This document shows, piece by piece, positions 56,000 to 59,939 of a DNA stretch of 64,000 nt (within the stretch, counting starts at the first letter, position 1; the number at the start of each line of letters is the position of its first letter). The DNA comes from Gammaproteobacteria bacterium (lineage in GTDB: Bacteria > Pseudomonadota > Gammaproteobacteria > Steroidobacterales > GCA-2729495), in NCBI GenBank assembly GCA_030583605.1, contig CP129466.1, positions 937,001 through 1,001,000 of the forward strand. Reading direction: 5' to 3'. The notes below the pieces were generated by a model. The model made no database searches, was not told where the DNA came from, and worked only from the letters and a program-made list of their open reading frames with translations. Both the position numbers and the translations under genes were made by a program.

Positions 56000-56725
56000 A
56001 TGTACAAGCGGCTGCACTTCCAGATCGCCGCTCAGCCGGACCTGGTTACCTGCGGGCCGACCTGCCTGCATGGTATCTACCGCTACTTCGGTGATGACAT
56101 CAGTCTCGGGGAAGTGATCGGCGGCGTCGACATGCTCGCGGAGGGTGGCGGCACGCTCGATGTATTCCTGGCCAATCATGCCCTGAGCCGCGGCTACCGC
56201 GCGACGCTGCACACCTACAACCTCTACATGTTCGATCCCACCTGGGTGCACCTGCCGGTGCCTGAGCTGATCGCGCGCCTGCATGCGCAGGCGGAGGCGA
56301 AGGAGGATCCGAAACTTCGCACCGCCACTGCCGGCTACGTGCGATTCCTGGAACTCGGCGGCCGGCTGCGCTTCGAGGAACTGCGTCCGGCGCTGTTCCG
56401 GCGCTTCCTCGGCCGGGGTATCCCCATCATGACGGGGCTCTCGGCAACCTATCTCTACCAGTCGCGCCGCGAGATCCCCGACACGAGCACACCAGATGAC
56501 ATCCGCGGCGTGCCGGCCGGTCACTTCGTGGTGTTGTCGGGCTATGACCGCGCGACGAAGCTGGTCGATGTCGCCGACCCTTACGAATGGAATCCATTGA
56601 GCGGTCAGCGGTATTACTCGGTGGACCTGCACCGGCTCGTCGGTGCGGTGCTTCTTGGCAGTCTTACCTATGACGCGAACCTGCTGGTGATCGAAGTGCC
56701 GAGGCGGCTGCGATGGCGACGCTGA
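56000..56725 (+). CDS. C39-like cysteine peptidase of an amide-ligase operon
   Basis: A 241-residue papain-fold protein with the C39-type active site: Cys18 in LVTCGPTCLHGIYRYF, His175 in AGHFVVLSGYD and Asp193 in DVADPYEW. There is no transporter domain and no signal peptide, so it acts in the cytoplasm. GGGAG six bases before ATG 56000 fixes the start. It overlaps the RLAN/ATP-grasp gene by 13 bases, and a GCS2 ligase gene follows. The peptidase may trim or remove a peptide product made by the two ligases. The biological substrate is not known. Confidence 0.82.
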   Translation: MYKRLHFQIAAQPDLVTCGPTCLHGIYRYFGDDISLGEVIGGVDMLAEGGGTLDVFLANHALSRGYRATLHTYNLYMFDPTWVHLPVPELIARLHAQAEAKEDPKLRTATAGYVRFLELGGRLRFEELRPALFRRFLGRGIPIMTGLSATYLYQSRREIPDTSTPDDIRGVPAGHFVVLSGYDRATKLVDVADPYEWNPLSGQRYYSVDLHRLVGAVLLGSLTYDANLLVIEVPRRLRWRR

Positions 56726-58176
56726 TCGTTGTCGACGAGCCGCGGGACTGGCCGCTGCAGATCCCGTCCGCTGAAGTAGTGGCGGCGCGCTCCTATCTCA
56801 CCGATGGGCGTTTCAGCGGGCTGCGTCGACCGCGTGTCTACAATCTCTGCGAGTCCTACGCCTACCAGGCCACCGGCTATTACGTGTCCCTGCTGGCCGC
56901 GGCGCGCGGGCACCGTCCGCTTCCCGATGTCCTGACCATGCAGGACATCAAGTCTCCGGCGCTCATTCGCCCGACCGAAGAGCTCGAGGAACTCATGCAG
57001 AAGGCGCTGCAGGAGCGCAACGAGGAGCGCTTCGACCTGAGCGTCTACTTCGGCCATCACCCGGAACCGCGTTTCCAGCGCCTGGCCCAGGCGCTGTTCA
57101 ACGTTTTTCCGGTGCCCCTGCTGCGGGCGAGTTTCCTGCGCCGGCCGAAGTGGCGGCTGCAGGGGCTGCGGCCGATTCCGGTGGGCGATATTCCGGCGGA
57201 GCAGCGCGAGTTCCTGCGCGGCGCCATCGAACAGCACTTCGCGCGCCGCATGCCCGCGCCCAAGGCGCCGGCAGTACGCTACGAGCTTGCCATCCTGGTG
57301 AATGCGGCCGATCGTTCGCCACCGTCCGACCCGCCGGCCATACGCCGGTTCGAGCGGGCGGCCGAGGCGCACGGCTTCGAGGTCGAGGTGATCGGGCCGG
57401 ACGATTTCGGACGCCTCGCCGAATTCGACGCGCTGTTCATCCGCGAAACGACCCAGGTCAATCACCACACCTACCGGTTTGCGAGCCGTGCGCGTAACGA
57501 AGGGTTGATCGTGATCGACGACCCCGACTCGATCGTGCGCTGTGCGAACAAGGTCTATCTCGCTGAGTTGATGACCAGGCTGGGCATTCCGATGCCGAAG
57601 ACCCTGATCGTCCACCGTAACAACATCGATCGCGTCGAGGCCGAGCTCGGTTTGCCCTGCGTGCTGAAGAAGCCCGACAGCAGCTTCTCCCAGGGCGTGG
57701 TGAAAGTTCAGGATCCGGTCGCCTTGCGGCTTGCGCTGAGACAGTTGCTCGAGCGCAGCGATCTTGTGATCGCGCAGGAATACCTGCCCACTCCATTCGA
57801 CTGGCGGGTCGGAGTCCTGGATCGCAAACCGCTGTACGTGTGCCGCTATTACATGGCGCGCAACCACTGGCAGATCTACAAGCAGCAGGCCGGCGGCAGG
57901 CTCACCGGCGGGCGCTGGGACACGCTGCGGGTCGACGAGGCCCCGCCCGCCGTAGTGGAACTCGGGATGCGCGCGGCCGACGCCATCGGCGACGGCTTCT
58001 ACGGCGTCGATATCAAGGAAGTGGACGGCCGGTGTCTCGTGATGGAGGTCAACGACAATCCGAGCGTCGAGCGCAGCGTGGAGGACCAGGTGCTCGGTGA
58101 CGCGCTCTATGAAGCGGTAATGCGGGTGTTCCGGACGCGGCTCGAGCTGGCGCGAGTCAGCGGGAATGGCCGCTGA
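56713..58176 (+). CDS. RimK-like ATP-grasp ligase with RLAN N-terminal domain
   Basis: A 487-residue protein in two parts. Residues 1-about 200 match the RimK-like ATP-grasp N-terminal (RLAN) region (RPRVYNLCESYAYQATGYYVSLLA, partly quoted). Residues about 210-480 form a RimK-type ATP-grasp module: FIRETTQVNHHTYRFA, PCVLKKPDSSFSQGVVKV with the nucleotide Lys, DWRVGVLDRKPLYVCRYYM and the metal site YGVDIKEVDGRCLVMEVNDNPS. It should form amide bonds between an amino acid and a carboxylate using ATP. It overlaps the peptidase gene and precedes the GCS2 gene by 15 bases. Confidence 0.9.
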   Translation: MATLIVVDEPRDWPLQIPSAEVVAARSYLTDGRFSGLRRPRVYNLCESYAYQATGYYVSLLAAARGHRPLPDVLTMQDIKSPALIRPTEELEELMQKALQERNEERFDLSVYFGHHPEPRFQRLAQALFNVFPVPLLRASFLRRPKWRLQGLRPIPVGDIPAEQREFLRGAIEQHFARRMPAPKAPAVRYELAILVNAADRSPPSDPPAIRRFERAAEAHGFEVEVIGPDDFGRLAEFDALFIRETTQVNHHTYRFASRARNEGLIVIDDPDSIVRCANKVYLAELMTRLGIPMPKTLIVHRNNIDRVEAELGLPCVLKKPDSSFSQGVVKVQDPVALRLALRQLLERSDLVIAQEYLPTPFDWRVGVLDRKPLYVCRYYMARNHWQIYKQQAGGRLTGGRWDTLRVDEAPPAVVELGMRAADAIGDGFYGVDIKEVDGRCLVMEVNDNPSVERSVEDQVLGDALYEAVMRVFRTRLELARVSGNGR

Positions 58177-58191
58177 GGGGCCGCCCAGGTC

Positions 58192-59430
58192 GTGCTGCGG
58201 CTCTTCCAGGGGTTTGGTATCGAGCTCGAGTACATGCTCGTGGATGCGGCGACGCTCGATGTCGCGGCGCAGGCCGACTGGTTGCTTGCCGAGGCAGCCG
58301 GCACGATCACCGGCGAGTATTCGAGCGGACCGCTCGCCTGGAACAACGAGCTGGCGCTCCATGTGATCGAGTTCAAGCTGGCGGAGCCAAGCTCCACGCT
58401 GGCTGGAGTGGCGGCACTGTTCCAGGCGGACATCGGCACGGCGAACGCCTTGCTGGCGCGCCGCGCCATGCGCCTGATGCCCGGCGGCATGCACCCGTGG
58501 ATGGACCCGGCGGGAGAGTTGCACCTGTGGCCGCACGACAATCGCGAGGTGTACGCCGCGTTTGACCGGATCTTCTCCTGCAAGGGCCACGGCTGGGCGA
58601 ACCTGCAGAGCATGCACCTGAACCTGCCCTTCGAAGGCGAGGCCGAGTTCGGCCGGCTGCACGCCGCGATACGTTTTCTGTTGCCGATCCTGCCCGGGCT
58701 GGCGGCCAGTTCACCGGTGATGGACGGACAGCTGACCCGCTGTGCGGACAATCGGCTGGCGGTTTATGCGACCAATTGTGTGCGCATCCCGTCAGTAACC
58801 GGATCGCTCGTGCCCGAGGCGGTGTTCGGTATCGACGCCTACCGCAGGGAGGTCCTCGGACGGATCCAGGGCGATCTCGTGGCCCACGATCCTGAGGGTG
58901 TGCTCGATGCGGAATGGGTCAATGCGCGCGGAGCGATTCCGCGGTTCGAGCGCATGGCGATCGAGATCCGCGTGCTCGACGTCCAGGAATGCCCGATGAT
59001 GGACCTTGCCTATGCGAGCCTGATCGTTGCAGCCTTGCGCGCGCTATGCGCCGAATCCTGGGCCGATCACGCTGCGCTTGCCGGCTGGCGCACGGAAGAT
59101 CTCGCGCGCCTGCTCCGCGTCGCCATAGAAGGCGCCGAAACCGCCGAGATCAACGACGGGCGTTACCTGGCCGCGCTCGGCTATCGTGGCCGCCAGGCGT
59201 CCGTGGCGCAGGTTTGGGGGCACCTGGCCGATCACGCCGCGGCCAGTGGCCAGATCGAGGCCGCCGACGAACGCGCGATCGAGCACTACCTGCGTCATGG
59301 CTCGCTCGCGACCCGCATCAGCGCCGCGCTGCCGGCCGAGCCCGACCGCACGGCCCTGCAGCGGGTGTACGCAGAACTCTGCGCCTGTCTCGCCGAGGGT
59401 CGGCCGTACGCGCCGCGAATCGCCGGCTAG
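58192..59430 (+). CDS. GCS2-family carboxylate-amine ligase
   Basis: A 412-residue member of the glutamate-cysteine ligase family 2 (glutamine-synthetase-like fold). Visible are FGIELEYMLVD near the start with the metal-binding glutamates, SMHLNLPF, IEIRVLDVQECPMMDLA with the second metal-site region, and NDGRYLAALGYRG. It should activate a carboxylate with ATP and join it to an amine; gamma-glutamyl chemistry is usual in the family. GTG 58192 directly follows the ATP-grasp gene. Having two different ligases and a peptidase in one operon implies a peptide-like product. Confidence 0.88.
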   Translation: MLRLFQGFGIELEYMLVDAATLDVAAQADWLLAEAAGTITGEYSSGPLAWNNELALHVIEFKLAEPSSTLAGVAALFQADIGTANALLARRAMRLMPGGMHPWMDPAGELHLWPHDNREVYAAFDRIFSCKGHGWANLQSMHLNLPFEGEAEFGRLHAAIRFLLPILPGLAASSPVMDGQLTRCADNRLAVYATNCVRIPSVTGSLVPEAVFGIDAYRREVLGRIQGDLVAHDPEGVLDAEWVNARGAIPRFERMAIEIRVLDVQECPMMDLAYASLIVAALRALCAESWADHAALAGWRTEDLARLLRVAIEGAETAEINDGRYLAALGYRGRQASVAQVWGHLADHAAASGQIEAADERAIEHYLRHGSLATRISAALPAEPDRTALQRVYAELCACLAEGRPYAPRIAG

Positions 59431-59939
59431 GCAGACCTGCGCGAGCCGTTCGCCCGCAGCCGCAATTGGTGTGCCGGAACCCGGCGGTCATCCGTCGGCT
59501 GGTACCAGGTCGCGAACTCGCGCTCCGCGGTGCGCCAGGCGCCCAACGGGTCGGCGCTGACCACGTGGAATGAATCGAATCCGGCCCGACGCATGAAGGG
59601 CATCTGTTCCAGCAGCACCACGCCCGTGGCGCGCAGCTCACCGTGAAATCCCCATTGTTCGCGCAGCAGCCGCGCGTAATGGTAGGGGCGCCCGTCCCGA
59701 AGCGCCGGGAACTCGAGTTCGATCACGGCAAAGCAATCGAGATCGTCGGCGATCACCTCCGGGTGCTGGTCGCTGCGTAGCCGGATACCGAGCGGATCGC
59801 GCCGGATGCTGAGTTGGTGCACGTTGTCCAGCCACTGGAGGAGCCCGACGATGACGGCGCCTTTCGCAGGAATGAGCGCTGCACCGACGACATCGGTGAA
59901 GTGGTCATCGACTAACCGGCCGTGGCGGATCAGGGCCAT
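59427..59939 (-). CDS. DUF934 protein
   Basis: A 170-residue protein with the DUF934 core FPALRDGRPYHYARLLREQWGF (quoted by its part GRPYHYARLLREQWGF), GELRATGVVLLEQMPFM and RRAGFDSF. DUF934 is normally encoded next to cysI and cysH and is thought to help sulfite reduction. Here no sulfur assimilation gene is near. The 3' end overlaps the GCS2 gene by four bases, convergently. Function unproven. Confidence 0.85.
   Translation of the reverse strand: MALIRHGRLVDDHFTDVVGAALIPAKGAVIVGLLQWLDNVHQLSIRRDPLGIRLRSDQHPEVIADDLDCFAVIELEFPALRDGRPYHYARLLREQWGFHGELRATGVVLLEQMPFMRRAGFDSFHVVSADPLGAWRTAEREFATWYQPTDDRRVPAHQLRLRANGSRRSA

Follow-up and report, generated by a model that had tools for sequence, protein, structure and literature searches.

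In the window, by which we mean the whole 64,000-nucleotide stretch of gammaproteobacterial DNA analysed here, a C39-like peptidase, an ATP-grasp ligase with an RLAN domain and a ligase of glutamate-cysteine ligase family 2 (GCS2) are encoded side by side, and comparison across genomes supports this trio as a functional unit composed of two ligases with conserved active sites and a papain-type hydrolase. A fourth gene, for an N-formylglutamate-amidohydrolase-type protein (FGase, PF05013), often joins them. We put forward, tentatively, the possibility that the C39, RLAN-ATP-grasp, GCS2 and FGase proteins constitute a widely conserved four-enzyme pathway by which a new metabolite or cofactor, a glutamate-containing peptide, is made and recycled in the Pseudomonadota, Planctomycetota, Bacteroidota, Balneolota, Thermodesulfobacteriota, Verrucomicrobiota, Chlamydiota and other phyla. 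If this is true, many bacterial phyla possess a dedicated make-and-recycle pathway for a peptide metabolite that has been overlooked, and a common, testable function can be given to four enzyme subfamilies that are so far uncharacterised.

The three genes of the window are intact and lie on the same strand in the order C39>RLAN>GCS2 (Table 1), the first two overlapping by 13 bp and the last two being separated by a gap of 15 bp, which bears out the reading frames and the tight packing described in the original prediction. The upstream neighbour is a divergent NnrS gene; the downstream neighbour, a DUF934 gene, is convergent and shares 4 bp with the GCS2 gene at its stop. The domains that had been predicted are also confirmed, all of them scoring over the Pfam gathering scores: Peptidase_C39_2 (E 4e-7) in the peptidase, RLAN (PF14401, E 8e-45, 152.6 bits against a curated cut-off of 25) and RimK (E 4e-7) in the second protein, and GCS2 (PF04107, E 2e-22, 80.6 bits against a cut-off of 21) in the third, in which the GhExE signature is present. 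The scores fall short of narrower assignments, with 24.8 bits where 331 are needed for RimK sensu stricto (the 30S S6-L-glutamate ligase equivalog PRK10446), and 52 bits against 176 for TIGR02050, the other canonical YbdK or glutamate-cysteine ligase subfamily and equivalog models scoring lower. No signal peptide is apparent by eye on the C39-like peptidase, and a promoter and terminator scan of the operon returned matches at chance level. Measured against three congeners, dN/dS is 0.12-0.18 for the C39 gene, 0.08-0.10 for the RLAN gene and 0.22-0.25 for the GCS2 gene, and all three are therefore under purifying selection.

Table 1. Genes and domain of the operon in the window, with the gene that follows it
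Feature	Position	Strand	Start and length	Basis or remark
C39-like (papain-fold) cysteine peptidase	56000..56725	+	ATG, 241 aa ORF	Pfam, catalytic residues
RLAN domain + RimK/LysX-type ATP-grasp ligase	56713..58176	+	ATG, 487 aa ORF	Pfam, invariant residues
RLAN domain (PF14401), ligase residues 25-169	56785..57219	+		Pfam E 8e-45
GCS2 (glutamate-cysteine ligase family 2) carboxylate-amine ligase	58192..59430	+	GTG, 412 aa ORF	Pfam, residues
DUF934 gene, convergent; outside the system	59427..59939	-		Occupies the FGase slot of most congeners

In the peptidase, Cys18, His175 and Asp193 are found at the positions first proposed for them and Gln12 fills out a papain tetrad, each member of which is conserved across phyla, in 68-69 of 69 sequences. 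The RLAN ligase has five invariant residues (Lys280, Lys319, Asp433, Glu445 and Asn447, in 75/75 sequences), and in the GCS2 protein G9-x-E11-x-E13, N52-E53, E60, H133, R251, R254, E258 and R260 are invariant or nearly so, G9, E11 and E13 being present in 83 of 85. The ATP and metal residues noticed earlier in both ligases are thus conserved across phyla, and a lack of conservation at the active sites, which had been named as an outcome that would tell against the system, was looked for and conservation was found.

A GCS2 query made from an alignment of six Pseudomonadota loci was used to scan 84,980 species genomes, giving at least 567 relatives, of which the best 80 loci were kept, selection being by GCS2 only. 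Contiguous C39>RLAN>GCS2 order is seen in 63 of these best 80 loci; the median spacing between successive genes is 2 and 0 bp, and 4-bp overlaps are frequent. According to protein models of both partners, an RLAN ATP-grasp reading frame lies within the fetched stretch at 75 of the 80 and a C39 gene at most, some absent C39 genes falling past contig ends; the five loci without a nearby RLAN all belong to genomes that encode one elsewhere, with about 50% identity by whole-genome search. Hosts of the trio include Planctomycetota, Desulfobulbaceae, Bacteroidota, Balneolota, Verrucomicrobiota, Hydrogenedentota, Myxococcota, Chlamydiota and Nitrosovibrio, and this GCS2 is present in 27 of 119 Planctomycetota genomes in an even sample. 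The neighbourhood search that had been suggested for the triplet therefore returned it as a contiguous unit in many phyla, and not as the scattered homologues that had been named as the contrary outcome. Two Nitrosovibrio loci (L166, L203) have C39, GCS2 and FGase together and the RLAN gene elsewhere in the genome. Two metagenome-assembled genomes (MAGs) labelled Planctomycetales and Candidatus Kuenenia stuttgartiensis (L165, L169) have near-identical RLAN genes and common neighbours, and one of them is therefore probably mislabelled or contaminated.

Six GCS2 genes from the Planctomycetota scored lower, and most of these are located in long open frames. Four are single ORFs of 974-1022 aa comprising RLAN, ATP-grasp and GCS2 domains (two confirmed by Pfam), and in a fifth, where the contig end cuts the ORF, an ATP-grasp tail is joined to GCS2; at the sixth locus (L222) the genes are separate. 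One of the loci (L221) has the gene order C39, RLAN-ATP-grasp-GCS2 fusion, FGase. Since such a natural fusion occurs in several genomes, the two ligases very likely share one substrate, and the earlier idea of consecutive amide formation is strengthened. The fused protein also provides a single-protein entry point for assay.

Clustering of the neighbours revealed the FGase gene, of about 240 aa, directly 3' of GCS2. Among the 76 testable loci, defined as those with at least 700 bp of sequence 3' of GCS2, it adjoins GCS2 downstream on the same strand in 47, members of the window's genus included. The order of the trio is thus kept as originally predicted, but the description as a triplet was incomplete, as the genes often form a four-gene unit with FGase. 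Most congeners retain FGase in the operon, in the slot that DUF934 has taken in the window, and the nearest relative of the window genome (L102) likewise has no FGase beside the operon. The window genome encodes an FGase of the operon subtype about 675 kb away, outside the window (C1:318858-319559, equivalent to L201:2859-3560; E 2e-88), between genes that we take, by eye, to be argS and priA, whereas its other FGase reaches only 2e-4 with the operon-type model. In two related genomes (L210:5621-7936 and L211:6476-8474) a second GCS2, with a YbdK-type score, adjoins a different FGase, which suggests a wider association of GCS2 with FGase.

Among solved structures, the C39 model (pLDDT 94) matches C39 peptidases with a Z score of 16.6 (PCAT C39) and, tied with these, the glutathione acyl-enzyme of phytochelatin synthase (Z 16.4 over 163 aligned residues). 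In the RLAN model (pLDDT 92), the best fold matches of the ATP-grasp half are ArgX-LysW, LysX, RimK and D-Ala-D-Ala ligases, with the graspetide ligase PsnB also among the matches; ArgX, LysX and RimK add amino acids to carboxyl groups. A sequence search with the GCS2 profile returned no solved relatives.

We give an even chance to the view that these proteins form a glutathione-like cytosolic pathway in which two ligases build a small peptide and hydrolases process or recycle it. GCS2 would activate a carboxylate, which by precedent in the family would be the gamma-carboxyl of glutamate, and couple it to an amine to give a glutamyl-type amide; the RLAN ATP-grasp enzyme would extend this molecule by coupling another amino acid to one of its carboxylates. 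The C39 enzyme may then cleave, trim or transfer what has been formed, much as phytochelatin synthase acts on glutathione, while the FGase-type amidohydrolase, assuming that it acts on such a product, would hydrolyse an N-acyl or glutamyl amide and so return its glutamate for reuse. We infer the substrates, the order of the steps and a free small peptide as the product; the co-occurrence of the trio, the adjacency of FGase at 47/76 loci, the ligase fusion and the conserved catalytic residues all support the scheme. Against it, transporter-type C39 peptidases match the C39 model equally well (Z 16.6), FGase is non-adjacent in 29 of the 76 loci, and the nearest ATP-grasp structures belong to enzymes with protein substrates (LysW for ArgX/LysX, RpsF for RimK), so a protein-borne substrate is possible.

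That last point leads to protein tagging, a rather unlikely alternative in which the ligases would attach glutamate-type residues to a cellular protein, at its C terminus or on a side chain, and the C39 enzyme, the FGase or both would remove them. The RLAN domain could in that case serve as a target-recognition module, and the nearest fold structures do include ArgX with LysW and RimK with RpsF. On RpsF, RimK adds glutamates and RimB removes them (PMC12239564). A protein target is made less likely by the lack of any carrier or tag linked to the operon, there being no conserved carrier or tag gene beside it and no target candidate; within 900 bp on either side, no Pup-like, precursor or tag small ORF is conserved, and only low-complexity, antisense or genus-local pieces were seen. 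In these families, moreover, the GCS2 members whose activity is known have small-molecule substrates, and so do FGases, whose substrates are of the N-acyl-glutamate type. The absence of a Pup-like gene has previously been used to argue for glutathione-like roles of GCS2 relatives (PMC2588565).

It is improbable that the operon provides a second route to glutathione itself or to a closely similar thiol (gamma-Glu-Cys-X), in which case the C39 enzyme would play the part of a phytochelatin synthase under metal stress. This reading is disfavoured because the window genome encodes an ordinary, separate GshA (E 5e-153) and GshB (E 1e-68) elsewhere, and the RLAN ATP-grasp domain is nearest to RimK/LysX and not to GshB, even though the pairing of GCS2 with ATP-grasp is of the glutathione type, the fusion of both ligases in one protein is reminiscent of GshF, the C39 model matches the phytochelatin synthase fold and GshA (PF04262) is unmatched in some carriers (Blastopirellula, Roseivirga). 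Very improbable is a graspetide-like RiPP maturation operon with C39 as the leader peptidase: C39 peptidases are known for cleaving double-glycine leaders and ATP-grasp enzymes for making graspetides, and PsnB is among the fold matches, but no precursor ORF is conserved within 900 bp on either side, the gaps between the operon genes are too short for a precursor gene, the C39 protein has no transporter fusion and the ATP-grasp domain is closer to RimK/ArgX.

RLAN was found in 60 of 299 sampled Pseudomonadota genomes, and the sampled genes outside the window's order almost always adjoin a GNAT or GNAT-DUF3335 protein; 45 such GNAT-type loci gave no matches to GCS2 or FGase. In a maximum-likelihood tree the 79 GCS2-type RLANs form one group (SH-aLRT 100) apart from the 45 others. 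A DUF3335-GNAT fusion has been reported (PMC10318531). DUF3335 proteins are weakly similar to the window C39 protein (best E 8e-5), and the GNAT-DUF3335/RLAN-RimK system likewise sets an RLAN ATP-grasp enzyme beside a papain-like C39-related protein; it has GNAT, however, where the window operon has GCS2 (and many relatives FGase), and no GNAT or DUF3335 gene lies beside the window operon, the RLAN partner being a stand-alone C39. At one locus (L088:7053-9032, minus strand) a GNAT domain is N-terminal to RLAN-ATP-grasp in one 659 aa protein, next to a GNAT-DUF3335-like gene. This fusion parallels that of RLAN with GCS2, and the RLAN enzyme may thus take either GNAT or GCS2 as its amide-forming partner. 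A family of related proteins, some 261-263 aa long and presumably RMD1/DUF155-like to judge by eye, recurs 3' of GNAT-type RLAN operons (L074:9279-10070, L092:10641-11426).

Iyer et al. are said to have described in 2009 RLAN neighbourhoods with GNAT-papain proteins and with GCS2 as predicted amidoligase or peptide-forming operons, and the Pfam entry PF14401 reportedly mentions these neighbourhoods too. The system was thus not as undescribed as first thought with respect to RLAN and GCS2, while for the four-gene unit, the ligase fusion or a tested function we found no description in open-access papers.

Single components also have known relatives. HutG-type N-formylglutamate amidohydrolases belong to the same Pfam family as the operon FGase, which is nevertheless a distinct subtype, as the scores of the operon model for the two FGases of the window genome indicate. 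Phytochelatin synthase Alr0975 has the papain fold in common with the window C39 protein, a likeness seen in the model, with 13% identity. Glutathione synthesis by GshA and GshB, or by the fused GshF, also combines a glutamate-cysteine-ligase-type enzyme with ATP-grasp, sometimes in one protein, but the ATP-grasp enzyme of the window type, unlike that of GshB/GshF, is RimK/LysX-like and has an RLAN domain, and the domain order of GshF is the reverse of that in the RLAN-ATP-grasp-GCS2 fusion. RimABK and RloABC pair an ATP-grasp ligase with a peptidase, as the window operon does (PMC12239564); their peptidase is a retropepsin rather than a cysteine peptidase and their operons do not contain GCS2 or FGase, whereas the ATP-grasp enzyme of the window type carries an RLAN domain.
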